In this document: positions 13,286 to 64,000 of the stretch, one piece after another
How positions within the stretch are numbered: position 1 is the first letter of the stretch
Layout: every line of letters begins with the position of its first letter
Assembly: GCA_001972305.1 (NCBI GenBank)
Contig: BDDD01001500.1
Span: 73,553-137,552, forward strand
DNA: 64,000 nucleotides
DNA from: Cephalotus follicularis
Lineage: Eukaryota; Streptophyta; Magnoliopsida; Oxalidales; Cephalotaceae
Direction of reading: 5' to 3'
Translations under genes and position numbers: made by a program
Notes under the pieces: model-generated
Databases searched by the model: none
What the model saw: the letters and a program-made list of their open reading frames with translations, nothing else
What the model was told of the DNA's origin: nothing

Positions 13286-13427
13286 TAAAGCTTCGACAGT
13301 TATCTCCAAAGCGTCAGCGCTTAAGCCCTTTTTCCTTACATAAAAGCGTCGATGTCTTATACTTCAAAAACAAGGAAATTACACATGAAAGCGTCAGCGG
13401 TTTGGCAAAAGCGTCGGCGCTTTAGTA
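13286..13427 (-). repeat. Phased TCGA near-palindrome array 2, second LTR of B
   Basis: Copy of the 8825..8965 array; the first GCGTCGAC has become GCTTCGAC. Confidence 0.72.
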
Positions 13428-16987: not shown

Positions 16988-18480
16988 TGTAACACCCCCG
17001 GATGGCGGGAGTCGTCACAGGGTCATGTCATACATATCATAACTTAACAAACTCATAAAAGTTTTTGGAAAAAATTCGGATCGATTCGGGGGTCAAACGA
17101 ATCAAAACGGGTGAAAACAGCACATTCCAGGGCATGATAGTCGACTAGAACAGGGGTCCAGTCGACTGGTTTGGCTTGGCAGTCGACTGGATCATATGAA
17201 CAGTCGACTACTCAACCAAAAATGCAGGTAGTCGACTGTGTTCTTCAATCCGGTCGACTACGCAACCATTCCAGTCGACTGTCCACTCAGACAGTCGGCT
17301 GTTCTGGGCAACAGAACATTTGGAAATCCGACGATTTGTTACTGAAATTGGTTCAAATGATTTCTACAATAAACTAGAGACATATGGACAGAAACATATG
17401 ATTATATATGACTTGTAGGTGACTTACAAACACAAATTTGACAAAAAAACGACATTTTAATGATTTAACTTGCAAAAAGGAAGTAAGGAGACATTGCATG
17501 AACATGTCCAATTTCTGTTTCTAATTGATTGCAGATGTTGTAAACTCAGTTTGTGACATATATAGGTGCATAAAACGTGCAGATAACATTACTAACACAA
17601 TAGTAACATGTTTAGGCAAGAATAAAAGACTCCAAGATACCAAGAGCACAAAAACTCAAAGTAAGCCATTGAAACAAAACTATAATTGAAGGAGATGAAT
17701 TCACTGACCTGTAGTGATGTTTAGGAACCCAGAAAACAGTAGGAATAACACTACAACAGAATCAAATTCGGCTATATACCAAACAGGGACCAAAGAATGC
17801 AAAAATAAGAACATGCTAAGACATGCACAACAAACTAAGTGAATTTAACCCAAAAGGAACAACTAAGGATTGAGATTACCTCTTGAACTTTGAAGAAACA
17901 ATTACACAGCAGATTTTTGCACAATAACCAGATGGAATCTGCAGTAGCTTGCAAGAATGATGAAGGCAACATATAAAATAGCCATGACACTCAATAATGA
18001 AGAAAGGGGGAGACAAGATTTGACAAAAGTGGGAAGGTATGATAACTTTTCTGGATTATGAAATGAGAAAGAAGAGATTCTAGCATGTGGAATAGTTGGT
18101 AGGATGAAGGAATCCTGGAAAGAAGAAGAATGGTAGGAAGAAAGTGGGAGAAAAAGAATAAAATAGGGAAAAGAAATAAAAGAATTGATAATAAAATGAA
18201 TTAATAATAAAAAGAATTTGGAATTATAAAAATTAAAAGAATAATAATTGTTTTTAATAAAATAAGTTTTGGATTAAAATAAGAATTTATAAAACCCAAC
18301 ATAGCATAACATACCCAATATCGGACCGGTATCATACCGCACAATTCACATAAACCCGATCATAGGGCAACCGGACTTTTAAAATTTAAACAAAATTTAA
18401 AGTCTGAAAACACATATAAAATCCGTAAAATATATTTACAAATCCGTAAAAATACATTTACGAACGAACAGGGTATTACA
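16988..18480 (-). repeat. 3' LTR of element C
   Basis: It pairs with 21867..23358. It carries the CAGTCGACTG array at 17138..17301. The stretch 18150..18300 is A-rich (AATAAAA-like words), perhaps promoter-proximal. No gene. Confidence 0.93.
17138..17301 (-). repeat. Array of CAGTCGACTG palindromes at 21-bp steps, LTR of C
   Basis: Perfect or near-perfect palindromes at 17138, 17159, 17180, 17201, 17229, 17251, 17272 and 17292. Steps are 21, 21, 21, 28, 22, 21 and 20. The spacer sequences between them are unrelated to each other. Repeated in the other LTR at 22017..22180. Confidence 0.92.
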
Positions 18481-23358: not shown

Positions 23359-24552
23359 CACGCCCCCGTTTTTTCCAAGTGGACAACATATAAAGCGGTA
23401 AGGCAATCGACACAACATAATTCAGCTCATGCGATAAAACGTATAAACAAAATCTTCAGTAGCGGAAGCAATAACATAAATAAGCTGAATTTAAATATAC
23501 ATCATGCATCCCATACTACGTGATGCCCAACAAGTTTATACAAAACCCAACATCATAGTCGATCGCCCAAAACGGAGCGTGAAACTACAGTACGAGATAA
23601 AATAAATCACGTTACAATAATCCAATAATCATGACCAATGTTCATTAACTCAGTACAAGAAATAAGAGAAACAACTTAGTCTTCTCCTTAAGTCTTCTTG
23701 CGTGCTCCATATCAAAACCCACTCCATCAATCTGTTACAATAGGGGGTTAGCCTTTGTCCTCACTCGGCTAAGTAGGAAAGTTTATGTATATAGTTCAAG
23801 GTCAAAGGTAATGCGTATCATGAATGAATGCATAGTGATGCAGTATGACATGTAATTTTCACAATAATTATATCTTCGTATATACATATAAAAATATATG
23901 CATGTTCACAGTACAGGTATAACCTTATAAGTTATATCAACACAAGCAGTAAATATGTCCCAAAAGGAACCAGACAAACAAGTCGTCATGACCGTCGCCA
24001 CCTCCTGGCCCCAACGTCATGCACTCTTACCCCATCCCCGTTTGCGAACGGTTTGGAGTAAGTCCTCCGTACAGGTTGCTTAGACAACGGCCAAACAATC
24101 AACAAGTTATTAGCACAACGGCTAATGATAAACAGGACCAAGCATTGCACAGTACAAGTCAAGCAATAAAATATAATTACTTGATCAAATATATTTGTTT
24201 AAAATATATTACTCCGTTCACAAGTTGTGATAAGTTATAAAACTTAAAACAATACATTTGATTGTGTAACCAATCCTTTAAAACATTTCTCCGTCTTTGG
24301 AAATACTTCCCCGGTCATTTCGAAAATATATAAAATCATATGTTGACAAATATACATTTTCGTACAATAATGATTTTAATAATCATGCAAGTTTTCCAAG
24401 ATGGTTAATACATTTTAGAAATCAACCATAATGCAATTCATTGTACAGTAGCAGTTCAAATGCAGGGCAAACATATGCTCAGAATGCACCTAGGGTTGTT
24501 GGTAATTAACCTAGGCCTATCACCTTATCTAAAGATCCCATTTCTGCTATAA

Positions 24553-24790
24553 CAGTCAGTTGTTTTCCTATGGCAGTCGGCTGGATCCTTGAGTCAGCCG
24601 ACTGTTCTTCCCCAACAGTCGGCTTGTTCATCATGAGTAATCAGCAGTCGGCTGTCTTCCTTCGACAGTCGACTGTTCTGGGTAAAAACGCATGCACAGT
24701 CGACTGTTCTTACATGACAGTCGACTGTTCTTACATGATAGTTGACTGGATAATCGAGTAGTCGACTGTTTTACTTAAACAGTCGGCTGT
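24553..24790 (-). repeat. CAGTCGACTG/CAGTCGGCTG array, 3' LTR of D
   Basis: Eleven units with centres starting at 24556, 24577, 24598, 24619, 24648, 24669, 24700, 24721, 24742, 24762 and 24783: steps of 20-21 with two of 29 and 31. The partner LTR has ten units, lacking one 21-bp unit here. Confidence 0.92.
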
Positions 24791-25640
24791 TCTGGGCTGG
24801 ACAGTACCAGTAATTCACTTCTAATCCATTCAACAAACAATTGGAACTTATCCACACATATTCAGACCTCAGAATATCACCAGTAATCATTTCCTGGTCT
24901 AAAACACAACTCAATTCATGCATTATTCTCCGTTTTCATTGTAGTTCAAATGAAATCCAAACATGGTATTGCATGAAAACCAATCCAACACTCCATTCAA
25001 AACTTAGTGTGCATGTCAAGTTATTTATTAACAATAACCACAACATCAATACAGGAATCCACAACCAAACAACTACAACATTCATTTATAACATCATTAC
25101 TCTTAAACTCAAAATGCATGCATAGAATTCTCTACTATTTCCCCTACCTTTTGATTCCAAGTTAGGAATCTGTAAGTCCACCTCTTTGCGTTCCAAAAGA
25201 GATGTTCTAAGCTCCCCAGAAGCTCCAACTCCAAGCCCAGTAGCTCCAAGAACAGCCCAACAGCTCCAACCCGAGCTCCAAGCTTCAACAACGGTGAACA
25301 CTCTCCTTTCCTCTTTTCTTTGTGTTTTTCTCACTACTGTCCTCTTTGGTTCTTGGCCTTTCAGTACCAGGACGAAAGGGATGAGTGAAACATTTTATGC
25401 AGAGGGTTTTCTCTCCCTTTCTCCCTTAGCTCTCCTCACATGGAACTAAATGCCACATTCTCCCATTCACATGCATGCACACACTCACATGTCTAATTTC
25501 TCTTCCCCATGAGGTTTGCATGATTCCCAGGTGTCCCTTACATCCTTTCCTTCGATTTCATGAAGCACAGATGGTATCCACTTCCATCTATCAGCTGTAG
25601 CATGTGATTTCTGCCACATGCAACAAAACAGAGCATGATC

Positions 25641-49020: not shown

Positions 49021-49233
49021 GGACACTGATCCCCACTCGAAAATGAGATCCACGAGACTTGGATTGTTATTTCTGGTCTCCCATAATATTTGAGGGTTAT
49101 GGGATTCGCGTAAAACAGTGGGAGCCTGAGAGGAAAAACACCTAAAAGATTAAAGACCAAATTTGTATGGTTATAAACATTTAAATTGAATTTAGATGAA
49201 TATTGTCTTTATTTTATATTTGTAGAAATCACA

Positions 49234-50145
49234 ATGACAAACCCCCTCACTGTAATTCTTGAGAAGAATGAGTTGACAGGTTCAAATTATGTGGACTGGC
49301 TACGGAATGTCAGAATAGTTCTAAATTCTGAGGACATAGAGAATGTCCTAGAGGCCCCTATGCCAGCACTGCCTACTGAAGATGCCTCAACCAAATATCG
49401 TGCCATTTATAAGAAATGGGTGGCTGATGAAAAGAAAGTCAGAAGCTGCCTAATGGCATCGATAAGCAATGCCTTACAAGTCCTGCATGAATCGATGCGA
49501 GACTCTAGGGAAATTCTCCTACATCTCCGCGAATTATACGAAGAGACTAGTAGGAATGCTCGGTTCCTGCTCACTCCTGAGCTGTATGGCACTAAAATGG
49601 CTGAAGGATCTTCTGTTAATGATCATGTCCTTAAGATGATCAATGCGATTGAACGTCTTGCTGCTCTTGGCATCATTCAGGATGCTGAATTAAGCACTGA
49701 TCTGATCCTTCACTCGCATCCACCTTCCTTCTCTGGTTTCATCACCAATTTTAACATGAATAGGATATCAGCTACTCTGCTTGATCTTCTAAACATTCTG
49801 AGGGAAGCCAAAGTGAACATGAATAAGGGCAAGGCACCAGTCATGATGGTAGGACAGTACCGTAGGCCCAAGAGGAAGGGCAACTCCAACCTTGAGAAGG
49901 GGAAGACTAAAATTGGGACAATACCACCACGACCGCCATCTTTCAAACTAGAGAAATCCAAACCACATAATCAGACAAACCAGCAAGCTGTTGCTGCGCC
50001 GGACACTGTCGCAAGAGTTGCACCTGCTGAGGAGTCTGCCTCAGGAGATCCTGCTAAGGGACCGTGCTTCCATTATGGGTAGCCAGGACATTGGCAAAGG
50101 AACTGTGTTACATTCCTTAGATCAATTGGAAAATGTATGCCCTGT
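49234..50145 (+). pseudogene. Gag of Copia element H
   Basis: The likely start is ATG 49234 (MTNPLTVILEKNELTGSNYV), although the frame opens at 49186. The product has the Copia gag layout: LTGSNYVDWLRNVRIVL, YKKWVADEKKVRSCLMAS, LRELYEETSRNARFLLTPEL, GSSVNDHVLKMINAIERLAA, then a basic, proline-rich tail. The nucleocapsid knuckle near 50070 reads PCFHYG-stop-PGHWQRNC: the second cysteine is tyrosine and the next codon is TAG. The gag core is open for nearly 290 codons, so decay is moderate. Confidence 0.88.
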
Positions 50146-50169: not shown

Positions 50170-50792
50170 AATATTACTGATTCATCTTCCTAGATTTTAG
50201 ACAGCATATGTGGTACCCACATATGTTGTAATTTACAGGCTCTCATGGACCGAAGAAACCTTGAGAAGGGTGAGGGAGATCTACGGCTTGCGGATAGTTC
50301 AATAGTTGAAGCCATAGCCATAGGATCAATTTATATTTTGTTGCCTGTGGGCCAAAGTTTAGAACTCAAACGTTGTGTTTATTCACCCCACATTTTGCAT
50401 AATATTATTTATATTCCAGTATTAGATGCTGGAGGTTTTCATATTATTTTTAAAGACAAGTGTTGTTCTATTTTATTTAATAATATGATTTATGCAAAAT
50501 GTTTCCTTCATGATGGATTATATATATTGAGTAAACATGAGATTGTTTTCAATATGCAAAAGAAAGAGAGATGAAGTTAATCAATCCTACCTATGGCATT
50601 GCATACTCGGTCATATAAGTGAGAAAGGAGTCCGCTGGTTAATCTGGGATGGATATTTTGATTTTTCAACGTATCAACCACTTCCAACTTGTGAATCCTG
50701 CCTTAAAGGTAAAATGACCAAATCTCGCTTCACAGGGAAAGGGGAAACGACCCCAGAACTGCTAGGTCTAGTACATAATGATGTATGTGGAC
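50170..50792 (+). pseudogene. Protease and integrase N-terminal region of element H, cut by element E
   Basis: Protease-like: LDSICGTHICCNLQAL near 50197 (the usual DSG is DSI), then LEKGEGDLRLADSSIVEAIA, LKRCVYSPHILHNIIYIPVL and LDAGGFHIIF. After a one-base frame change near 50565 come the integrase zinc region YLWHCILGHISEKGVRWLI with CESCLKGKM and HNDVCG, which holds the first catalytic aspartate. The frame is broken at 50793 by element E and continues at 58886. A stop sits near 50192. Confidence 0.87.
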
Positions 50793-51965
50793 TAAAATAA
50801 AACACTCTTGCAATATACAAGAGGGGGGTGAGTTGAATATTGAAGTAAATATCTGAAATTTAAAAACTTTAAATGTAAAGAGTCAAGGAAAGAAAAACTT
50901 CTCCAAATTTAGAGTGGTTCGACTAACTCTTGCCTACGTCCACTTTTCCCAAGGGAGCTCCTTGAGTTTCCACTATCTCGAATTGATTAAGGCAGCAATT
51001 CGTTACACCTTACAACTTCGTGATTGACCTCAATCACAAGACCTTGACCTCAAGACCTTAGAGGATTCTCCTCTTTTACAAGTAATAGTGAAAGTGTTTA
51101 CAAGATAACCTCTCAAATGGATTGATATGAATAATACAGCTCTTAATATGAAACACTCAGAAAATCTCAAAGGATAGAGCTTAGAAGCTGTTTAGAACAC
51201 TATGGAGCACTTTGAGCTTTTTACACACTAGTATGCTTGAATTTGATCTCTCTTTTGATGTTGTGTAATTCTTGTTGAATTGATGTAGTTCAGTGTCTTC
51301 TTCTGAGGTTTCAGTCTTCCTTTTATAGGCAGAAAAGATTTGTAGCCGTTTCATAAATCATGGAAGCTTTTGATTTAAAAATTCGTAGTTGCAATCTTTG
51401 AATTTTGTCTTTTGCTGACATAAAGACGTTGATGTCTTTGTAAAGGCGTCGATGTCTTTGTTAGTTGATAGCCGTTGGAAGTGCGCGTACTAGCCGTTCC
51501 ATGTTTCCCGGGTCAAACCATTTTAAAAAGACGTCGATGTCTTTTTAAAGGCGTCGATGTCATTTCTGGGAAATCTCCAGCATTTGAATCTTTGAGCATC
51601 ACATCGACTTCTTCTGTAGGGGTCGATGTCTTTTCTGGGAAGTGCAGGTAGCTCTAGAAAGGCGTCGATGTCTATGGAAAGGCGTCGATGTCTTTTGTAC
51701 GGACGTCGATGTCTTTTCATGTAGGGATCGATGTCTTCATTGAAAATTGACCTGTAACTTCTGTCACTAAAGACGTCGATGTCATTTTGAAAGGGATCGA
51801 TGTCTTTCTGTACGGACGTCGATGTCATTTCTTGAGGGTCGATGTCTTCTTTTGCAGATGAGTTTTGCTTTGGTATTGAACATTGTAATTTCTTGCACAT
51901 CAAGTAAACTTGTTAAATGCAAATATGTTATCATCAAAACAAGGATTGAGACTGAATCGTCAACA
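50793..51965 (-). repeat. 3' LTR of element E
   Basis: In E's orientation it runs from TGTTGACGATTC to ATTTTA; the outer end has one base changed from TTTCA. It holds the GACGTCGATGTC array and has one 20-bp unit more than the other LTR. ORFs through it are shadows of the repeats. Confidence 0.92.
51421..51850 (-). repeat. Array of AAGACGTCGATGTCTT near-palindromes, 3' LTR of E
   Basis: Centres (TCGA) begin at 51429, 51449, 51534, 51554, 51604, 51623, 51665, 51685, 51706, 51728, 51776, 51797, 51819 and 51839. Adjacent steps are 19-22 bp; larger gaps are 42, 48, 50 and 85 bp, near multiples of the step. In E's orientation this is about 125-540 bp into the LTR, probably U3. Confidence 0.9.
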
Positions 51966-52618
51966 ATCTCCCCCTTTTTGATGATGACAAAAATTTGCTC
52001 AAAAGGCATAAATTAAAGTAATACCAATTTAAAACATACAAGCAAATACCAATAGAGATATCTTATAATGTAAACAATGTTAATAGGAAAGTTTCTGTGC
52101 AATATCAATAAGCAATGAGTTATGCTGTTTGAGAGTTCTATCTCCCATATAAATCAAAAAACTCTAGCATAGCATTGAGCCTTTTCTCTTGAGCCATTTC
52201 TCCAAAAAACTAACATTTTGAGCTTTATCATTTTGAGCCATTTCTCCCCCCTTTTTTGTATAGCATCAAAAAGTTCTACAAAAGGCAGAAATCATTAGCT
52301 CCCCCTTAATAAAAGCAAGGGTGAAAAGAATATGATCATAGGCATTATGCACAAAATATCAAAATATCAGCAATGAACATAATTATCGGTAATAATTGAG
52401 AAAACACATTCATTCAACACAATTATATCACAATTCATAAACATATAAAACTGTATAAACATCATCTCATAAACACAATCATAAAAACATATAATTCCAT
52501 TAACAAACTTTGTTCTCACACAAAATTTATAAAAAGAAATTACAAATGAACACTATGGTTCATTACAACAATCAAACATACAAGAAACAAAACAGGTAAA
52601 AATAACAGCAACAAGCAA
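51966..52618 (-). other. Polypurine tract and AT-rich 3' spacer of element E
   Basis: The minus strand reads AAAAAGGGGGAGAT next to the LTR. The rest is AT-rich with a second G-run (GGGGGGAGAAATGGC, near 52240) that might serve as an additional tract. No gene seen. Confidence 0.7.
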
Positions 52619-53932
52619 TCAAGAGGCAGCAGGGGGGGCATCAGAATCAGAGTCATCGCCCGAAGTCTCTTCGCAACCATCAATAGTCTTGGAATCGGCG
52701 AGTTTTCGTTCCATTCTTTTGAGACATCTCCTTACGACTTTTAGATCGTAGTAGATAGTGTCATCGATGTTATCGAAATCGGAGCGAATCGTCGCATGAT
52801 CTTTTTCCAAGCTAGTGAGCCGCGTGTTGACTTGCTCAAATTTCTCTTCAAGCGAGGCTGGCATAGAATCAAATTGAGAACATAAACTCCATCACCCTGT
52901 CAAAATCAGTAGAGGATGAGGTTCCTTGAGCTTGAGCCTGAGTAGGTGCAGATTCTTCGTGTGCTTCCCAAGGAGGATTCTCTTCTTGCTCTTCCCTTGC
53001 AATCCTTTGCACTTGATCAACTTTGGGGCAATAAGTCCTAATGCCTTCTTGCTTTTTCCACCCCATTCTATTCATAGTGCTCTTGTTGTAAGTGTCCTCT
53101 TTCTTCAATTTCGTTGCAATTTCACCTTCTAGCCGAATTTGATGATGTTGGAAGACTTTGGTGAGGATTGAACCGAATGGTAGAACATATTTCTCTTGAG
53201 AGAATGCTCTCACCATAGTCTTGAGCATGAGAAGGGGAAAACAGAATTCAATTTTGGAGAGGATGCACCACATGAGAAAAACTTGCATCCGGGACAACTT
53301 TGCATACCCTCCACCGGTGGGTAGAAATTGATGTACAATGAGATGGTGGAGGAGCCTATGGTCAACTGATAATCTATTGGTGGTTAGTGCCATATTGGGA
53401 TGAATATTTGGATCATTTGGGTAGAGAATGGACAAAATTTGGTTAGGGTGAAAACCCTCAACCTCCGCCCATTTTTTGTGTTCAAAAATGTATAAACCGG
53501 TATGTGGAATGTGTAGAATAGAGGCTAGAATCCTAGCATCTAGATAAATTCTCTGCCCTTTAACAGAAGAGGAGAGTGCAAATTCCTCATTGGGGCTTGA
53601 AACAATCCGAAGGTTCATGTAAAATTCCTTGACCAATTTTATGTAAAAAGGGTCAAAAATTTGTACAAGGGGAATGAGGTGTAAGTCCTCAAGCCAGGAA
53701 ACAAAAGAAAACTCAGAGGAACAGAAATCTAAATCGATATTTCTACCTCCCATAACCCTTTTATCAACAAAAACCACATTTCTCAATGGGACTTGCTCTT
53801 TGGATTTGGAATCCGATTGGAGAGCAGGGTCAGGAGAAGGTTCTCTAATCTCAAGTCTCTGCCTTTTGGAGATTTCTTAGGCTAAGAGGAAGATACAGCC
53901 TTCTTTTTGGTAGCTTGTTTTGACCTAACCAT
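52619..53932 (-). pseudogene. Extra ORF of element E: plant transposon-type protein with C-terminal coiled coil
   Basis: The best start is ATG 53932 (MVRSKQATKKKAV), a basic N-terminus interrupted by a TAG and a frame change. The main open part, 53786..52869, contains VKGQRIYLDARILASILHIP, WAEVEGFHPNQILSILYP, HRLLHHLIVHQFLPTGGGYA and LMWCILSKIEFCFPLLMLKT, the pattern of the 'putative plant transposon protein' domain (Pfam family I recall as Transposase_32; not searched). A frame change near 52870 leads into 52864..52619, a predicted coiled coil (FEQVNTRLTSLEKDHATIRS) with an acidic tail GCEETSGDDSDSDAPPAAS. It lies between RNase H and the 3' LTR, where some Copia families carry an extra gene. 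Its function is unknown; no membrane segment or signal peptide is visible, so I do not call it envelope-like. Confidence 0.8.
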
Positions 53933-54125
53933 TTTTACAAACAGTTGGTGAGCACAATGGAAAGACACAAAGAATGATAAAGACAGACGGATTGGAGGAG
54001 ATGAAATTTTTTTTTGAAGTTGGAGAAAGATTCAGAGGATTGTTTACGACCTACTAGAATGATTTTTCAAAGAAAAAATAAAGAGAGTAGAAATTTTTGA
54101 AAAATCAGAATAGGGTAAAAGTGTA

Positions 54126-54430
54126 TAATGAGCATGAGATCGACGTTTTTATGAAGAAGTCGATTTCTGAGTTAAGGACGTCGACGTGATTAAAAAGAAG
54201 TCGACGCGTTCTTTAAATGAACGGAAGAAATCGATTCAGAAAACGCTGCGTTTTGAAAAGCATCGACGCGTTTTAAAAGAAGTCGACGGGTTTCAGGGAA
54301 ACAAAAAGAGATCGATGTTTTTAAAAGAGATCGACGTGATTTTCATAAGTCATAACGTTTTGCAGAAAAGAAGTCGACGTGTTTTTGTAAAGCATAGAAT
54401 TTCCAGAAAAGAAGTCGACGTTTTTGTAAA
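54126..54430 (-). repeat. Internal array of TCGA near-palindromes between pol and the extra ORF of E
   Basis: AAGTCGACGT/GATCGACGTT-type words with centres at 54140, 54160, 54181, 54201, 54231, 54263, 54283, 54312, 54331, 54350 (TCAT), 54374, 54395 (degenerate) and 54415. Steps are mostly 19-21, with some 24-32. The spacers are A-rich. The array lies directly upstream of the extra ORF in reading direction. Confidence 0.85.
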
Positions 54431-54522
54431 ACAGAACAGAAAATCAAGCAAAAACAGAGCAATCATCAAAAATCAATCATCACATGCATTCAATTAAAAC
54501 AATCATTCAAGCATAATAAACA

Positions 54523-56546
54523 TCATTCAAGCTCACATAAACCTAATTCTCTTCTAAATTTAGAAAAAGAATTTTCATCTAGGGGTTTTGTGAAAATATC
54601 CGCCACTTGTTTTTCGGTGGGAATATACTCTAAAACAATGTCACCACTTTCTACATGTTCTCTTAAGAAATGGTATCTAATATCAATGTGCTTAGTCCTA
54701 GAATGATGAACTGGGTTCTTAGCAATACAAATGCTACTAGTATTATCACATTTAATAGATACATCCTTAACATATATACCATAATCAACCGATTGTTGCT
54801 TTTGCCAAAGAATTTGTGCACAACAACTACCTACTGCAATATATTCAGCTTCGGTGGTAGATAAATCTACTGAATTTTGCTTTTTACTAAACCCAGAGAC
54901 AAGCATGCTCCCTAGGTATTGGCATGAGCCACTAGTGCTCTTGCGGTCAACTTTATAACCACCAAAGTCGGCATCCGAGTAAGAATGTAAATCAAAACTA
55001 GAGTCTCAGGAATACCACAAGCCTAATGTAGGTGTGTATGCAAGATATTTAAAAATACGTTTCACAGCTAATAAATGGGATTCTTTAGGATTGGATTGAA
55101 AACGGGCACACAAGCATACACTAAACAAAATATCGGGTCTACTTGTGGTTAAGTACAGTAAAGATCCTATCATACTTCTATAAAGCTTTTGATCGACATG
55201 TTTACCTTGTTAATCGTTGTCAAGCTTTGTAGAGGTGCTCATAGGAGTCTTGCTTGTTTTAGCATTCTCCATTCCAAACTTCTTCAGAATATCCTTTGTA
55301 TATTTTGTTTGATTGATGAAGATCCCATCTTTGTTTTGTGTGACTTGTCGTCCAAGAAAATAGTTGAGCTCTCCCATTAAACTCATTTCAAATTTAGATT
55401 TCATGGTATTTGAAAAATCCTTGCATAAAGAGTCATTAGTAGATCCAAAGATAATATCATCAACATAAATTTGAACAATAAGTAAATCATTACCTTTAGA
55501 TTTTGTAAAGAGAGTAATATCAACATTAACACGTTTAAAATTGTTTTCAATTAAAAACTTTGTCAACCTCTCATACCAAGCACGAGGGGCTTGTTTGAGT
55601 CCATATAAAGCTTTGTTCAATTTGAAAACATGATTTGGAAAGTGAGGATCCTCAAAACCTTTAGGTTGTTCAACATACACCTCTTCTTTAATAAAACCAT
55701 TTAAAAAGGCGCTTTTCACATCCATTTGATATAACTTGAAATTATTAAAACAAGCAAATGCAAGCAACAAACGAATGGATTCAAGTCTAGCAACCGGTGC
55801 ATATGTCTCATCATAGTCTATTCCTTCTTCTTGTGAATAGCCTTGGGCAACTAGTCTAGCCTTGTTTCTAATGATGATCCCTTGATTATCCATTTTGTTT
55901 CTAAAAACCCATTTAGTTCCTATAACCGAATGGTCCTTTGGTCTAGGTACTAAAAACCAAACTTTGTTTCTTTCGAATTGGTTTAGCTCTTCTTGCATAG
56001 ATACAATCCAATTTTCATCTTTTTCGGCTTCTACAAAGTTCTTGGGTTCTAGGTGAGAAAGGAATGCAACATAGTTACAAGTGTTTGCTCTAGATCTAGT
56101 CCTAATGCCTTGTTGAATGTCACCTATGATAGCCTCCTGTGGGTGGTCTCTAACTACCTTATAAGTCTTATCTATAAGTTCTTTTTGGTAGCTATCCTTA
56201 GGTTCTACATCTATGTCGTCCGATGGTTCATGAAAATCTATACTATCATGCACATGTGAAGAAGAATCATGTAACTCATCGAAAACAACATGCATAGATT
56301 CTTCTACTAATAAAGTACGCTTATTGAAGCATCTATAAGCTTTACTAGTAAGAGAGTAACCAAGAAATATACCTTCATCCGCTTTAGAATCAAACTTACC
56401 AAGTTGATCTTTTCCATTGTTGTGTATGAAGCATTTACATCCGAAGGCACGAAAGTAACTAATGTTAGGCTTTCTCTCCTTCCATAACTCGTATGGAGTC
56501 TTTTTGAGAATTGGCCTTATTGATGTTCTATTTAAAATATAGCATG
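54523..56546 (-). pseudogene. Integrase C-terminus, RT and RNase H of element E
   Basis: The first part (56546..56296) shows the integrase C-terminal blocks YFRAFGCKCFIHNN and DEGIFLGYSLTSKAYR. RT at 56295..55210: WVFRNKMDNQGIIIRNKARL, YAPVARLESIRLLLAFA, QMDVKSAFLNGFIKEEVYVE, LYGLKQAPRAWYERL, catalytic YVDDIIFGS and YFLGRQVTQNKDGIF. Stops TAA at 55210 and TGA at 55006..55008 lie in the same frame. RNase H: YSDADFGGYKVDRKSTSG, STTEAEYIAVGSCCAQILW, TKHIDIRYHFLREHV and ending LGLCELE. All are typical of Copia; gene order IN-RT confirms the superfamily. The upstream part of integrase is missing. Confidence 0.93.
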
Positions 56547-56547
56547 N

Positions 56548-57699
56548 TTTTCAAAACTAAATTTCTCAAGTAGTTCAAGAAGTTCACTTACCTCATTCTC
56601 ATCTTCATCTTCATCTTCATCTTTATCACTATCATTGATTGCCATCAATGCAATTTGTGCTACTTCTTGGTCTTCTTCTTCTTCGGAACTTGATTCATCA
56701 CTATCCGACCAAGTAGCAAGCATAGCTTTCTTCTTTTTGATAGTGTCTTTAGCTTTCTTCAATCTTGGACATTCACTCTTGTAATGTCCGGGTTTGTTTC
56801 CTTTGAAACAAACTATTTCTTCCTTGTTTGTTTTGGATTTTGATGGGAATGTCTTCTTGAAGTGTTTGTTCCCAAACTTTTTCTTTGCTAGATATTTCTT
56901 GAATCTTCTTGTGATCAAAGCCATTTCATCGTCACTATCTTCTTCACTTGAGTCCGTTGTAGAAGACTTGAATGCAATGACTTTCTTCTTCTTTTTATCT
57001 TGTTCTTCATCATCCTCATGGTTTTTGATGGTCATTTCGTGTGTCATGAGTGATCCAAGAAGTTCTTCAAGCAGCAAGGTGTTGAGGTCTTTTGCTTCCT
57101 CTATAGCCGTAACTTTAGGCATCCAACTTTTCGGTAGACACATAAGTATCTTTCTTACCATCTCACTATTAGTGTAGCATTTATTCAAAGATTGTAAGGA
57201 ATTAATAATATTTGTAAATCTAACAAACATACCGGAAATGTTTTCATTTTCCTTCATAGAGAACATTTCGTATTCTCTTACAAGCATATTTATTTTTGCA
57301 TCCTTGACTTGGTTGGTTCCTTCATAGGTAACCTCTAGTCTATCCCACATATCTTTTTGCGGTAGCACAAGATGATACTCTATTGAATTCATTTGAATTT
57401 AAGGCACATATAATAACATGTTTTGCTTTAGCATTTAATTGTACCTTCTTTCAATCATCAAACGTATATGAGCTTCTCGGTTTGAGGGTTTTGATAACTT
57501 CTTGCGAGATGATGTGAGGAAGTTCCGGGCCATCAATAATGATGTCCCATAAGTTGAAGTCAAGAGCTTGAATAAATATAGTCATCTTTGCCTTCCAATG
57601 ACTATAGTTGTTTCCATCGAAAAATGGAGGCTTTGAGATGGACATGCTTTCCTTGTTTGACATATTCAATTCCATAAGGATCTTTGTAATCTCTAACAA
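56548..57699 (-). pseudogene. Gag of element E
   Basis: Starts near 57699 or, more likely, at the internal MSNKESMSISKPPFFDGNNY. The N-terminal part (YSHWKAKMTIFIQALDFNLW) ends at a TGA at 57451; after a one-base insertion in an A-run near 57350 the frame continues from 57392: LEVTYEGTNQVKDAKINMLV, YEMFSMKENENISGMFVRFT, WMPKVTAIEEAKDLNTLLLE, LLGSLMTHEM, lysine-rich linkers, a knuckle CFKGNKPGHYKSEC (one cysteine replaced by glycine), and acidic stretches DEDEDEDENEV. It ends at the N base at 56547. The UBN2-type layout is normal for Copia gag. Confidence 0.88.
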
Positions 57700-57716
57700 T
57701 TAAGAAATAAGATTAA

Positions 57717-57730
57717 CCGCTCTGATACCA
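57717..57730 (-). other. Primer binding site of element E (tRNA-iMet)
   Basis: The minus strand reads TGGTATCAGAGCGG, two bases from the LTR. Confidence 0.92.
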
Positions 57731-57732
57731 AT

Positions 57733-58885
57733 TGAAATAAAACACTCTTGCAATATACAAGAGGGGGCTGAATTGAATATTGAAGTAAATATCAGAAATT
57801 TAAAAACTTTAAATGTAAAGAGTCAAGGAAAGAAAAACTTCTCCGAATTTAGAGTGGTTCAGCTAACTCTTGCCTACGTCCACTTTTCCCAAGGGAGCTC
57901 CTTGAGTTTCCACTATCTCGAATTGATTAAGGCAGCAATTCGATACACCTTACAACTTCGTGATTGACCTCAATCACAAGACCTTGACCTCAAGACCTTA
58001 GAGGATTCTCCTCTTTTACAAGTAATAGTGAAAGTGTTTACAAGATAACCTCTCAAATGGGTTGATATGAATAATATAGCTCTTAATATGAAACACTCAG
58101 AAAATCTCAAAGGATAGAGCTTAGAAGCTGTTTAGAACACTATAGAGCACTTTGAGCTTTTTACACACTAGTATGCTTGAATTTGATCTCTCTTTTGATG
58201 TTGTGTAATTCTTGTTGAATTGATGTAGTTCAGTGTCTTCTTCTGAGGTTTCAATCTTCCTTTTATAGGCAGAAAAGATTTGTAGCCGTTTCATAAATCA
58301 TGGAAGCTTTTGATTTAAAAATGTGTAGTTGCAATCTTTGAATTTTGTCTTCTGCTGAAATAAAGACGTCGATATCTTTGTAAAGGCGTCGATGTCTTTG
58401 TTAGTTGACAGCCGTTGGAAGTGCGTGTACTAGTCGTTCCATGTTTCCTGGGTCAAACCATTCTAAAAAGACGTCGATGTCTTTTTAAAGGCGTCGATGT
58501 CATTTCTGGGAAATCTCTAGCATTTGAATCTTTAAGCATCACATCGACTTCTTCTGTAGGGGTCGATGTCTTTTCTGGGAAATGCAGGTAGCTCTAGAAA
58601 GGCGTCGATGTCTTTTGTACGAACGTCGATGTCTTTTCATGTAGGGATCGATGTCTTCATTGAAAATTGACCTGTAACTTCTGTCACTAAAGACGTCGAT
58701 GTCATTTTGAAAGGGATCGATGTCTTTCTGTACGGACGTCGATGTCATTTTTTGAGGGTCGATGTCTTCTTCTGCAGATGAGTTTTGCTTTGGTATTGAA
58801 CATTGTAATTTCTTGCACATCAAGTAAACTTGTTAAATGCAAATATGTTATCATCAAAACAAGGATTGGGACTGAATCGTCAACA
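57733..58885 (-). repeat. 5' LTR of element E
   Basis: 1153 bp; it matches 50793..51965 closely but lacks one 20-bp repeat unit. The outer bases TGAAATAAAAC are intact here. Confidence 0.93.
58361..58770 (-). repeat. AAGACGTCGATGTCTT array, 5' LTR of E
   Basis: Centres at 58369, 58389, 58474, 58494, 58544, 58563, 58605, 58626, 58648, 58696, 58717, 58739 and 58759. Thirteen clear units against fourteen in the other LTR. Confidence 0.9.
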
Positions 58886-59471
58886 TGGACCAATGACAGT
58901 TGATGCCCGAGGTGGATATTCCTACTTCATAACCTTTATGAATGATCATTCTTGTTTTGGTTATTTGTACCTTATGCGGCACAAATCTGAAGCCTTTGAA
59001 AAGTTCAAAGAATTCAGACATAGAGTAGAGAAACAGACTGGTAAAAGTCTGAAGACTTTTCGATCAGATCGAGGTAGTGAGTATCTCTCCACCGAGTTTT
59101 TTTTAACTTATCTCAGATATAATGGGATTATCTCTCAGTGGACCCCTCCGGGAACACCACAGTATAATGTTGTGTCCGAAAGGAGAAATCGTACCTTGCT
59201 TGACATGGTGTGTAGCATGATAAGCGATGCTAAACTTCCACTGTCTTTCTGGGGTTATGCTTTAGAGACTGATGTTCTCTTATTGAACATGACTCCAACG
59301 AAATCTGCTCCCAAGACCCTATATGAGATATGGAATGGGAAGAAACCCAATCTTAGTTACCTAAGGATATGGGGCTACCCTGCATATGTTAGTAGGCAGT
59401 AGCAGATAAATTGGAATCTAGGTCCATTAAATATAAACTTGTTGGATATCCTAAAGAAATAAGGGGATATT
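58886..59471 (+). pseudogene. Integrase core of element H, continued after E
   Basis: Continues from 50792 at the TGGAC duplication: GPMTVDARGGYSYFITFMND, YLMRHKSEAFEKFKEF, FRSDRGSEYLSTEF (second catalytic aspartate), WTPPGTPQYNVVSERRNRTL (catalytic glutamate), LPLSFWGYALETDVLLLNMT, YEIWNGKKPNLSYLRIWGYP. A stop at 59401 and another near 59460 follow, then element G cuts the sequence. With the first aspartate at 50780 in HNDVCG all three catalytic residues existed before insertion of E. RT and RNase H of H are not in the window. Confidence 0.9.
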
Positions 59472-59868
59472 TGTCACACCCCGTCTTTTCACAACATAAA
59501 AGTGGTAAAGCAATCAACATAAAATAATCTAACTCGTGTCAAAAATACCAATAATGTAAAACCTTCGATAGCGGAAGCAATAACATAACGAGCCGAATAT
59601 AAAAACACATCATGCATCCCATACTACGTGATGCCCGATACTCCAAACACAACTGTTGATCGCTCAAGACGGAGCGTGAAATAATACATCAGTGCGAAAT
59701 AACAAGATACCAATTATTACAAAATCCAAATAACATGGTCAGTGTTCCATAACCAGAATACATAAATAAAGAGATAACAAGCCTTCTTCTTAAATCTCCG
59801 TGCATGCTCCATGTCAAGACCACTCCATCAATCTGTTATAGTAGGGGCTAGCCTTTGTCCTCACTCGG

Positions 59869-61725
59869 CTAAGTGAATAAATCCATAAAATACAGTTCGA
59901 GTCATAAGATAAAGAGTATCATGAATAAATGCATAATGATGAGCCATGACATGTAATTTCTTTCAGTAAAATACCTCCGTGTGTACATATAAAATATGTG
60001 CATGCTCACAATACAAGTATAACTCATAAGTTATATCAATACAGGCAGTACATATGCTCCCAAAAAGGAACCAGACAAACCAGTCGTCGTGACCATCGCC
60101 ACCTCCTGGCCCCAACATCACGCACTCTTGCTTTAACCCAAATGGTTTTGGAGCAAGTCCTCAGTAAGTCGTTTAGCAAGGCGACTAAACCAACAGCAGG
60201 TTACTAGCACAGTGGCTAAGTAATCAACAAGTTATTAGCACGGTGGCTAATAATCAACAGGTTATTTAGCACAATGGCCAATAATCAACAAGCACAAGCA
60301 TTTCACAGAACAAGTCAAGCAATTTCATATAATTACTTGATCAAAATATATTTGTTTAAAATATACTTTTCCGTTCACAAGTTGTAATAAATCAGAAACT
60401 TAAAACAATACCTTTCTCTGTCTTTGGAAATACTTCCCCAATCATTTCGAAAATATATACATTCATAATTTATACATTTCCGCGAATTACATTTGGTTTC
60501 GTAATCAAACCCTTAAATCAGTTCTCTGTCGTTGGAAATACTTCCCCAAACATTTTGAAAATATATAAATTCATATGTTGACAAATATACATTTTCGTAC
60601 CCAAATGATCATAATAAAAATGCAAGCTTTTCAAAATGGTTTAACACTTTTAGGAAAGCAACCATAATGCATATCACAGTAATAATGCAACCATATGCTA
60701 GAAATGCATCTAGGTTCGTCCCTAAAGTTGTTTCGGGTCTAACGGTCCTCATTCATGTGAAATTCTACTGTCCAAGAGGAAAGACGTCGATGTCATTTCT
60801 CAAGGCGTCGATGTCTTTGCCTAAAGCGTCAAACCTATATACAAATATCCCCAGGCTTCTCTGGACCAAAGACATCGATGTCTTTTACAAAGACGTCGAT
60901 GTCTTTTTCATACCATGGGGGTTCAGTTCGCAACCATGATTCTAGAGGGCAAGATCCAACCTTTTAATCCCTCATAACAACAATTACCACTCCATAAACG
61001 TATAAGGTATGCTACTGGTTAATAGGTACACAACCATAACATCAACTTGAAACTAAACAGGCGATCCCTAAATGGCTAGAATGGCCATCTGGAATGAACA
61101 TCACAGTTCATACAATTTCCCAGAAAAGGAGTCGATGTCTTTATAAAAGACATCGATGTCTTTACATCACAGAACGTGTTTTCCACAATTTTAACACACC
61201 AAGCCATCAACAAACCCATCCTTTACACAACAGATTCACGTATTCATGTGATCATACATGCAAGATTAACTCAGTGTATCATAGTAACACTACAACAAGT
61301 CCAGAATCTCAATCCGATCATTAATATGCAATTCACCATGCTATACATTAACTTAAAACTCAAAATGCACATATAAATTCATCACTTTCCCCTACCTTAA
61401 TGTTCCAAGTTAGGAACTGGAAAGTCCACCTCTTTAAGTTCCCACGTTCTGGCTACTAATAGCTCCAAGACCCTTAGCAACTGCTACCCACGAGCTCAAC
61501 CCCAAGCTCCCAGCAACTCAACAATGGCACACACACACACTCACTGTTTCTCTTTCTTCTGGTGTTATAAAATGAGAGAGAGAAGTGGGGAAGGGTATTC
61601 TTATGCAGATGACTCTCACCTAACACTCTTCTTTTGTCATTTAATAGCCACTCCCGAGATCTCTCCCACTTCCAAGTTTTCTGCATATCTTTTTGTTTTC
61701 TAATCTCCCTTTTGCAGGTTGCATG
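59869..61725 (-). repeat. Left arm of the inverted repeat in G
   Basis: Pairs with 62039..64000. It contains GACGTCGATGTC units at centres 60787, 60808, 60829, 60875 and 60896, and 61132 and 61153. No gene. Confidence 0.85.
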
Positions 61726-62038
61726 GTAGAGACGTCGATGCCTATTGGAACCAGGGCACACGTGAATGAAGGGACATGTGCGTCGACATGGAAAGAAGGC
61801 ATCGACACCTTCTTACAAAAGAGAAAAGACATCGACGTCTTTTGGAAAGACGTCGACGCCTTTGTAAGAATGGCCATCACGTTCTTCGTCGGCAGAGTAA
61901 CATGCAAGGGGAATTGTTTAGAGGCTTTACCTAATGCCTTTTCAAGTGCGTTTCGACGTGTTGAGCATGCTGGTGTACTGACCAGCAGCACTAAAACCCA
62001 CCCTCGCATGGAACATGCAAGGAATTATGCCATCCTAA
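61726..62038. repeat. Loop of the inverted repeat in G, with a palindrome array
   Basis: Unpaired 313 bp. It contains TCGA near-palindromes at centres 61735, 61783, 61802, 61832 and 61853 (for example AAGACATCGACGTCTT), the counterpart of D's second array. A 123-residue ORF across it is a shadow. Confidence 0.8.
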
Positions 62039-64000
62039 CATGCAACCTGCAGAAGGAAGATTAGAAAATAAAAAAAAGAAATGCAGAAAACCTGGAAAGT
62101 GGGAGAGATCTCGGGGGTGGCCTGTTAAATGTCAGCATAAGGGTGTTTGGGGGAGCCATCTGCATAGGAATACCCTTCCCCACTTCCCTCTCTCGTTTTA
62201 TAACACCAGAAGAAAGAGAGGGAATAAAACAGTGTGTGTATTCCACCATTGTTAAGTTTGCTTGGAGCTTGGAGCTTGGAACCACTGGTGCAGCTACGGG
62301 ACGGACCTAGAGGGGCTGCTGTGACCTGTTTGGATACTAAAAGAGGTGAACTTTCTGGTTCCTAACTTGGAACATTAAGGTAGGGGAAAGTCATGGATTT
62401 ATATGTGCATTTTGAGTTCTAAGTTAATGTATAGCATGGTGAATTGCATGTTAGTGATTGGATTTAGATTCTAGATTTGTTGTAGTGCTACTGTGATGCA
62501 CTGAGTTAATCAGGCATGCATGGATACATGAATACGTGTGTTGCCTGTGTAAAGGATTGGTTTGGAGATGGCTTGGTGTGTTAAAATCGTGGTAAATACG
62601 TGCTGTATTGTAAAAGACATCGACGTCTTTTATAAAGACATCGACTCCTTTTCTGGGAAAATATAGAACCGTGATGTTCATTTCAGATGGCCATTTTAGC
62701 CACCTGGGATCGCCTGTTTAGTTTCAATTTGATGTTCTTGTTGTGTTCATATTAACCAGTAGCATACCTTACACGTTTATAGAGTGATATTCGTTTACAT
62801 GAGGGATTAATAAGTCGGATTTTACCCTCCCCAAACCAAGACTTGCGAACTGATACCCTCTAGTATGAAAAAGACATCGACGTCTTTGTAAAAGACTTCG
62901 ACGTCTTTGCTTCGAATACGCCTGGAAATATTTGTATACAGGATTGACGCTTTAGGCTAAAAGACATCGACGCCTTAGGGAATGACATCGACGTCTTTCC
63001 TCCTGGACAGTAGAATTTCGCACGAATGAGAACCGTTAGACCCGAAACGACTATAGAAACGAACCTAGATGCATTCTGAGCGTATGTTGGCATCGTTACT
63101 GTGATTTACATTATGGTTGCTTTCCTGAAAGTGTTAAACCATTTTGAAAATCTTGCATGATTGTTATGATCATTTGGGTACGAAAATGTATATTTGTCAT
63201 CATATGAATTTATATATTTTCAAAATGTTTGGGGAAGTATTTCCAATGACAGAGAACTGATTTAAGGGTTTGATTATGAAACCAAATGTAATTTGCGAAA
63301 ATGTATAATTTATGAATTTTCAAATGTTTGGGGAAGTATTTCCAATGACAGAGAACTGATTTAAGGGTTTGATTATGAAACCAAATGTAATTTGCGAAAA
63401 TGTATAATTTATGAACGCATATATTTTCGAAATGATCGGGGAAGTATTTCCAAAGACAGAGAAATGTATTGTTTTAAGTTTATGACTTATTACAATTTGT
63501 GAATGGAAACGTATATTTTAAACAAATATATTTGATCAAGTAATTATATGTAATTGCTTGACTTGTACTGTGAAATGCTTGTGCTTGTTGATTATTGGCC
63601 ATCGTGCTAATAACCTGTTGATTATTAGTCGCCGTACTAATAACTTGTTGATTACTTAGCCACTGTGCTAGTAACTTGCTGTTGGTTTAGCCGTCGTGCT
63701 AAACAACTTATTGTGGACTTGCTCCAAAACCGTTTGGGATGGAGTAAGAGTGTGTGACGTTGGGGCCAGGCGGTGGCGACGGTCATGACGACTGGATTGT
63801 CTGGTTCCTTTTTTGGGGAACATATTTACTGCTTGTGTTGATATAACTTATGAGTTATACCTGTACTGTGAGCATGCATATATTTTTATACAAAAGTATA
63901 CTTATTGAGAAAATACATGTCATGGCTAATCATCATGCATTCATTCATGATACTCTTTATCTTATGACTCGAACTGTATTTTATGGATTTATTCACTTAG
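62039..64000 (+). repeat. Right arm of the inverted repeat in G
   Basis: Reverse complement of the left arm with scattered changes and a local duplication near 63205..63420 (GGGGAAGTATTTCCAA occurs three times). AAGACATCGACGTCTT-type units lie at 62610..62655 and 62870..63000. The outer end lies beyond 64000. Confidence 0.83.

Follow-up and report, generated by a model that had tools for sequence, protein, structure and literature searches.

Repeated activator boxes in the U3 region of Tnt1, Tto1 and ONSEN are stress-responsive enhancers, and the VANDAL elements are Mutator-like DNA transposons. The closest described counterpart of the arrays considered here is the repeated motif (RM) of the Sireviruses, in which eight or more palindromic boxes stand in the upper half of the LTR ahead of the TATA box and further ones precede the env-like gene, the cluster being a CpG island (Bousios et al. 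2010, PMC2829016). The usual core of the RM is CGG-CCG, Tnd-1 being the published exception, and the TCGA-centred motifs in Table 3 of the paper include those of Vitis (CGGTCGACCG) and Tnd-1 (ACAATCGATTGT). The RM is called absent from the classic Ty1/copia elements, the group compared there, and neither a step of about 21 bp nor a rule of doublets is stated for it in the available text of PMC2829016. The same source gives as Sirevirus hallmarks a polypurine tract (PPT) followed by AT/TG, usually with several PPT copies, a CA/ATTGG junction at the PBS and a TATA box, and describes in many Sireviruses an env-like ORF within a long linker, beside the Copia gag and pol genes.

Arrays of short motifs are also described for the VANC proteins of VANDAL elements. 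The VANC21 motif is a 9-mer found in dense arrays of one orientation, and an unrelated TE, AT9TSD1, also contains VANC6 motifs and is hypomethylated in the presence of VANC6 (PMC5735166); in the text of that paper the strings 'palindrom' and 'spacing' occur zero times. In maize, the palindrome CACCGGACNNNGTCCGGTG is reported as the commonest motif in the structured regions of Copia elements and of Helitrons (PMC10760457), and a Sirevirus palindrome cluster as enriched in small RNAs (Bousios 2016, as cited in PMC10760457). Among the papers listed by a literature search, made largely without subscription papers, none described TCGA boxes in Gypsy LTRs or a two-turn step rule, and 'palindrom' and 'tcga' occur zero times in a machine-learning study of plant LTRs (PMC11656987).

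A Sirevirus with two box arrays

The window, that is the whole stretch of 64,000 nucleotides of Cephalotus follicularis DNA analysed here, holds an LTR-to-LTR element, E, with the following features.

50793-58885, minus strand: element E
50788-50792 and 58886-58890: target-site duplication of E, TGGAC
50793..51965, minus strand: 3' LTR of E
51321..51327, minus strand: TATA-box-like sequence TATAAAA, about 95 bp past the LTR array in the sense direction
51421..51850, minus strand: LTR array of 14 boxes
51968..51975, minus strand: terminal PPT AGGGGGAG, then AT/TG (Sirevirus attachment site)
52869..53876, minus strand: env-like extra ORF, 335 codons stop to stop (Pfam PF20167, E 6.7e-21)
54133..54425, minus strand: second (linker) array, 11 TCGA boxes, five of ten steps 19-21 bp, between pol and the env-like ORF
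55210..56550, minus strand: Copia SH3-like integrase part and reverse transcriptase (RVT_2, Pfam)
56532..57398, minus strand: Copia gag (Retrotran_gag_2, Pfam)
57720..57734, minus strand: 5' LTR/PBS junction CA/ATTGG-TATCAGAG, Sirevirus type
57733..58885, minus strand: 5' LTR of E, 95.8% identical to the 3' LTR

E is inserted in an older Copia element (gag at 49177-50082). The matches to RVT_2, Retrotran_gag_2 and PF20167 are each above the Pfam cut-offs, and the Copia type of both gag and reverse transcriptase bears out the assignment of E to Ty1/Copia in the preliminary description. No protease or integrase core was found among the ORFs of E between gag and the SH3-like domain; one N is present at 56532-56550, at the boundary of the two, and a deletion or an assembly gap may explain this absence. 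The PPT (AGGGGGAGATTG at 51975, minus strand) has a second copy with its 5' base at 52306, giving two copies compared with a Sirevirus average of four (PMC2829016). At the other end, the letters CAATTGGTATCAGAG at 57734 and TATCAGAGC at 57727, both on the minus strand, are those of the Sirevirus junction CA/ATTGG-TATCAGAGC. Judging from its PPT, PBS junction, TATA box and env-like ORF, E is a Sirevirus.

PF20167 is the sole Pfam match of the extra ORF at E<=0.01. The ORF has 428 relatives at E<=0.001, the best 120 listed being all from Cephalotus follicularis, with identities of up to 93%. The PF20167 proteins have a C-terminus that by eye is coiled-coil-like, and their lysine-rich N-terminus together with one marginal hydrophobic stretch (19-residue hydropathy peak of 1.8-2.0 in five proteins, the usual threshold being 1.6) suggests that the env-like protein may be either nuclear or an envelope protein. 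A sequence search of the PDB returned three weak matches, the best (E 0.059) on the C-terminal part, and the main domain was without a match to a solved structure.

All fourteen near-palindromic boxes attributed earlier to the LTR of E were located in the 3' LTR, starting at 51422, 51442, 51527, 51547, 51597, 51616, 51658, 51678, 51699, 51721, 51769, 51790, 51812 and 51832. The steps between them are 20, 85, 20, 50, 19, 42, 20, 21, 22, 48, 21, 22 and 20 bp, so that the 19-22 bp first described holds for nine of 13; the larger gaps had been placed near multiples of the step, which is true of 85 and 42 (near multiples of 21) and not of 48 and 50. TCGA is kept in 13 of the 14 boxes, the first reading TTGA, and ten boxes match AAAGACRTCGAYGTCTTT with at most three mismatches, while those at 51597, 51616, 51721 and 51832 have five, four, five and seven, respectively. 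The commonest form on the sense strand is AAAGACATCGACGTCTTT-like, with A before and C after TCGA in nine of 12 scored boxes. The array starts about 115 bp past the PPT/LTR junction, in the upper half of the LTR and upstream of the TATA box. The array recurs in the 5' LTR, where exactly one 20-bp box unit is missing (58592-58615 versus 51655-51695), which indicates that loss or gain of units does occur. The observed/expected ratio of CpG reaches 1.43 in the LTR array and 2.68 in the linker array, against 0.38 and 0.42 nearby, at a GC content of just 0.44 and 0.38.

When E was compared with six relatives, the boxes differed less than the neighbouring LTR sequence in all six comparisons, four of them with Fisher p<0.05. 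These four are L124 (15/252 differences in boxes versus 63/360 in neighbours) and L128 (19/252 versus 62/361), which are separated by 3.3 kb and could be the LTR pair of a single element, L156 (28/236 versus 76/349) and L151 (36/215 versus 55/223); the other two are L158 (40/250 versus 88/429, p 0.16) and L141 (41/250 versus 79/429, p 0.53). In L141 the boxes and the remaining LTR are equally conserved (0.84 and 0.84), and between the two LTRs of E the difference is not significant (5/252 versus 18/442, p 0.19).

Core, step and doublets across the genome

With up to three mismatches, the 18-mer of the E-type box has 41 matches in the window compared with 0.07 expected (largest of 100 shuffles: 2), distributed over the 3' LTR (10), linker (6) and 5' LTR (9) of E, a region F treated below (15) and a single position elsewhere. 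A lone E-type-like box with three mismatches lies at 13342-13359 in the right LTR of element B, where there is no array. Pairs of TCGA at 19-22 bp number eight in the 3' LTR of E versus 0.10 expected, a value reached by none of 300 dinucleotide shuffles. The LTRs of elements A and B have no significant excess of TCGA arrays, and such arrays are thus not universal among the LTRs of the window.

The genome-wide control for chance spacing proposed with the preliminary description was run on 20 stretches of 10 kb, hand-picked blind to content and comprising 196,515 bases without N. In these stretches 142 of 618 TCGA sites are palindromic at five or more of seven pairs, the top fraction among 16 palindromic cores, and 18 adjacent palindromic TCGA sites lie 19-22 bp apart versus 1.2 expected from other spacings, against zero to three for each of the other 15 palindromic 4-mers; a clear excess at 19-22 bp among the 16 is therefore seen for TCGA only. 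Counting all TCGA pairs irrespective of symmetry, 56 occur at 19-22 bp versus 14.7, of which 27 have a step of exactly 21; another 15 have a step of 42. Eleven other 4-mers range from 0.8 to 2.2 times background, ACGT being highest (14 versus 6.5). Replacing the core gave a similar picture, as E-type flanks occur 33 times around TCGA and zero times around each of nine other palindromic cores, and G-type flanks 56 times around TCGA versus 0-10 times around other cores. Chance or composition as the source of the arrays is ruled out by the shuffles, the reversed-motif controls, the core swaps and the off-step counts. A coding repeat is likewise ruled out, since some of the steps of 19-22 bp are divisible by three and others are not, and since by inspection the arrays lie outside ORFs.

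Counts over the window's own assembly (1,577,397,061 bases) are counts of copies and as such inflated by descent. In this sense GACGTCGATGTC occurs 87,434 times compared with 392 for its reversed control. Pairs of GTCGATGTC number 21 at steps of 15-18, 27,813 at 19-22 and 80 at 23-26 bp (reversed controls: 2, 145 and 0), and pairs of AGTCGACT, a pattern that is its own reverse complement and was counted on one strand, number 68 at 15-18 and 108,824 at 19-22 bp (controls: 4 and 341). The third box, GCGTCGACGC, forms 3,321 pairs at 19-22 bp versus four in the reversed control. Three box types recur, with TCGA cores within GAC..GTC (the E-type), CAG..CTG and GCG..CGC. Many of the 80 E-type pairs at 23-26 bp have a common linker, TAACGTTT.TAAAGAC, and a step of 25 (for example C8:413252, C13:326671 and C143:679659), and so appear to belong to a single family that went on spreading after leaving the 21-bp step.

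The conserved part measures about 18 bp in E-type boxes and about 8-12 bp both in the LTR called C (n=7) and in sampled AGTCGACT boxes (n=15, chosen by their inner 8), at an equal step. Positions in the linkers between boxes carry low information, hence the step holds across differing linkers. Once their boxes were masked, 22 arrays fell into ten groups without detectable mutual similarity, several groups being parts of one locus or LTR, so that about five families are judged to be involved.

The linking of boxes into runs was counted in pieces of the window and in loci L129-L158, a sample in which ten of 30 loci were picked for E-type boxes and family copies recur, so that the counts are not independent. 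Here 190 E-type boxes form 39 single, 68 double and five triple runs, where independent linking predicts 66, 27 and 19; as a mutated box splits longer runs, the shortage of triplets may be overstated, and by eye the LTR of E itself contains two runs of four. Boxes of the ACAGTCGACTGT (D) type and the AAAGCGTCGACGCTTT (G) type have 13 and 19 links at 19-22 bp, respectively, and most of their runs in this sample consist of a single box (25 of 35 and 102 of 118), the doublet as a unit thus applying to the E-type only. Steps of 5-18 bp are absent among the 190, 48 and 137 boxes of the three types. A helical phase between doublets was weak on 73 steps of 23-114 bp (p~0.003 for a period of 10.5, p~0.0004 for a period of 10) and disappeared when 40 unique step values were used (p 0.42 and 0.17).

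Boxes in other LTRs, including Gypsy-type LTRs

Further arrays in the window lie in LTRs outside element E.

17136..17283, no strand assigned: LTR C, seven AGTCGACT-like boxes with TCGA steps of 21, 21, 21, 28, 22 and 21 bp
24540..24800, minus strand: Gypsy LTR D, boxes of the second type (ACAGTCGACTGT and TCGG variants) at the place occupied by E-type boxes in the related LTR F
60780..61163, minus strand: Gypsy-type LTR F, left copy, three E-type doublets (60780/60801, 60868/60889, 61125/61146), step exactly 21
61728..61863, no strand assigned: E-type boxes between the F copies, single 61728 and doublet 61825/61846 (step 21)
62613..62998, plus strand: LTR F, inverted second copy, doublets 62613/62634, 62870/62891 and 62960/62981, step 21

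Region F is made up of two LTR copies in head-to-head orientation, separated by about 300 bp (~59475-61729 and 62035-64000 and beyond), with 84-89% identity in their aligned parts and no coding region within the window. All seven of its E-type doublets have a step of exactly 21 bp, and as the three of the left copy have counterparts in the second copy, four distinct doublets are represented. The Gypsy-type assignment of F comes from homology of its LTR to that of Gypsy element D (71-83% in the longer pieces); the protein of D contains the Gypsy-type domain SH3_Tf2-1, and its integrase-core and chromodomain matches fall under the Pfam cut-offs. Between two LTR segments shared by both, D has ACAGTCGACTGT boxes where F has E-type boxes, so that the type of box has changed within a single LTR lineage. 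Outside the window, loci L129 and L155 have E-type arrays upstream of matches to Gypsy gag and protease (27-61% identity to hand-labelled proteins of the window). The arrays of F and D are without CpG excess, and their placement relative to a promoter could not be made.

The occurrence of a matching array in both Copia and Gypsy elements, the central point of the preliminary description, is upheld insofar as F, by its homology to the LTR of D, counts as Gypsy. Outside the boxes, the array regions of E and of the Gypsy-type LTRs have no detectable similarity. In eight arrays of known or inferred sense, the sense strand reads A-TCGA-C in 56 boxes and G-TCGA-T in eight, a count in which the sense of F follows from homology to D, the pairs A|T, G|C and others as well as seven arrays of unknown sense are excluded, and copies are not independent, the agreements by lineage being three or four. 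The linker array of E departs from this polarity (one A-TCGA-C, three G-TCGA-T). A plain dyad would not need a shared polarity, which most of the E-type boxes show in E, F, L129, L141, L151, L155 and L156.

The presence of the same 18-bp box with mostly the same polarity in Copia and Gypsy-type LTRs could be accounted for by transfer as well as by the convergence suggested in the preliminary description. In that case an E-type segment would have passed from one kind of LTR to the other through nested insertion, template switching or recombination before spreading, either with the function proposed below or with none. Such a transfer is possible, if doubtful, as the masked arrays of E and F fall into different similarity groups at E<=1e-3.

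Candidate readers of the boxes and relation to known systems

In our preferred reading, to which we give a probability of roughly 0.55, the boxes are cis-acting sites bound by a dimeric DNA-binding protein, or by several related ones, in the control of the LTRs. Each box would be a dyad around TCGA read by a dimer, and as about 21 bp corresponds to two helical turns, two dimers would be brought to one face of the helix and cooperative binding would be favoured, the E-type doublet appearing as the working unit. The differing flanks (GAC..GTC, CAG..CTG and GCG..CGC) would be expected for related proteins that share a core. The position of one array upstream of the TATA box and of a second upstream of the env-like ORF suggests that in E they most likely control LTR transcription and an internal promoter. 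The preliminary description had invoked a shared factor, and spacing and symmetry do suggest, at the level of sequence, a common DNA-binding factor. We lean, as a matter of judgement and not of result, towards host proteins exploited by many families over a protein encoded by the elements.

An element-encoded reader would make the system VANC-like, in that a protein of the element, for which the PF20167 env-like protein of E is a candidate, would attach to the arrays of that element and lift its silencing, the Gypsy box families being passengers. This is consistent with the location of the arrays in noncoding DNA, one of them ahead of the extra ORF, with box types that differ in the same slot of the related LTRs D and F, much as VANC motifs are family-specific, and with the lysine-rich and coiled-coil-like ends and the numerous relatives of the env-like protein; the VANC6 motifs of the hypomethylated AT9TSD1 offer a parallel for passengers. 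However, the main domain of the extra ORF matches no solved structure and PF20167 has no known function, and we consider such a reader unlikely.

Alternatively, hairpins formed by the palindromes in transcripts may be a source of small RNAs and thereby of silencing, an idea put forward for the maize Sireviruses, in which a palindrome cluster is reported to be enriched in small RNAs. The LTR array and the linker array of E indeed fold better than shuffles (z -2.93, 0/100, and z -2.59, 1/100), but good folding is expected of any array of palindromes. Adjacent boxes are complementary at 13.15 of 18 pairs (se 0.19, n=78) versus 12.86 for distant ones (se 0.07, n=597), and the lack of clear covariation argues against hairpins as the cause of the step. 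Moreover, the common A|C form would place A-C mismatches in a sense RNA hairpin, and the retention of the 21-bp step even by boxes with a short conserved part, and hence a long linker, argues against a loop-length rule. Hairpins as the reason for the arrays therefore appear distinctly improbable. Neutral tandem duplication by replication slippage, with nothing reading the arrays, finds some support in the 20-bp unit absent from the 5' LTR of E, but is very improbable indeed, since slippage copies linkers too and these carry little information, E-type doublets are above and longer runs below independent linking, and core and step are the same in three box types.

More tentatively, we propose a genome-wide 'TCGA box code', in which LTR retrotransposons of both superfamilies in this plant would share dyad boxes two helical turns apart, with at least three flank types that switch within lineages while core and step stay fixed, and in which related host or element proteins reading the boxes would set which families are active, unrelated elements exploiting each other's factor or that of the host. 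No reader of the Sirevirus palindromes was named when they were described in 2010; with a two-turn step that is rigid and found in tens of thousands of copies and in both Copia and Gypsy-type elements, the search for the reader of the boxes becomes a matter for direct tests of binding. Should unrelated transposons prove to rely on a single factor, this factor would act as a switch shared by much of a 1.6-Gb genome.

Among the known systems, the boxes of Tnt1, Tto1 and ONSEN are, like those here, repeated U3 elements, but they are few in copy number and family-specific, and to our knowledge they are not common to several superfamilies in this form. The maize Sirevirus palindrome is a precedent for one palindrome in two TE superfamilies, although it has another core and was read as RNA secondary structure (PMC10760457). 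The VANC arrays resemble those reported here as short, dense, family-specific motifs in noncoding TE DNA that change quickly between related TEs (PMC5735166, PMC10398659), but they evolve as tandem repeats with a binder that is known and tested, whereas the present arrays are dyad boxes at a fixed step whose binder is putative. Furthermore, a VANDAL is a DNA transposon encoding VANC, while E is an LTR retrotransposon whose extra ORF matches PF20167, and the VANC arrays are an analogue of the arrangement and not a family including E.

The nearest relation is to the Sirevirus RM, a match overlooked in the preliminary description, which had correctly recognized a box and a step of about 21 bp common to Copia and Gypsy-type elements. 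The array of E shares with the RM the palindromic LTR boxes upstream of the TATA box, the additional copies upstream of the env-like ORF and, by its observed/expected ratio, a richness in CpG, and differs in its core, which is TCGA within GAC..GTC instead of CGG-CCG. From these traits, and from the TCGA-centred cases in Table 3 of the 2010 description, the array of E corresponds to a motif already described, and the Copia half of the arrangement fits the known kind with a departing core. While the RM is described as Sirevirus-specific, E-type boxes occur here also in LTR F and near Gypsy genes in L129 and L155. Boxes of the Copia class are accordingly already on record; the notable points are the sharing of the box across Copia and Gypsy-type elements and its strict spacing of about 21 bp.
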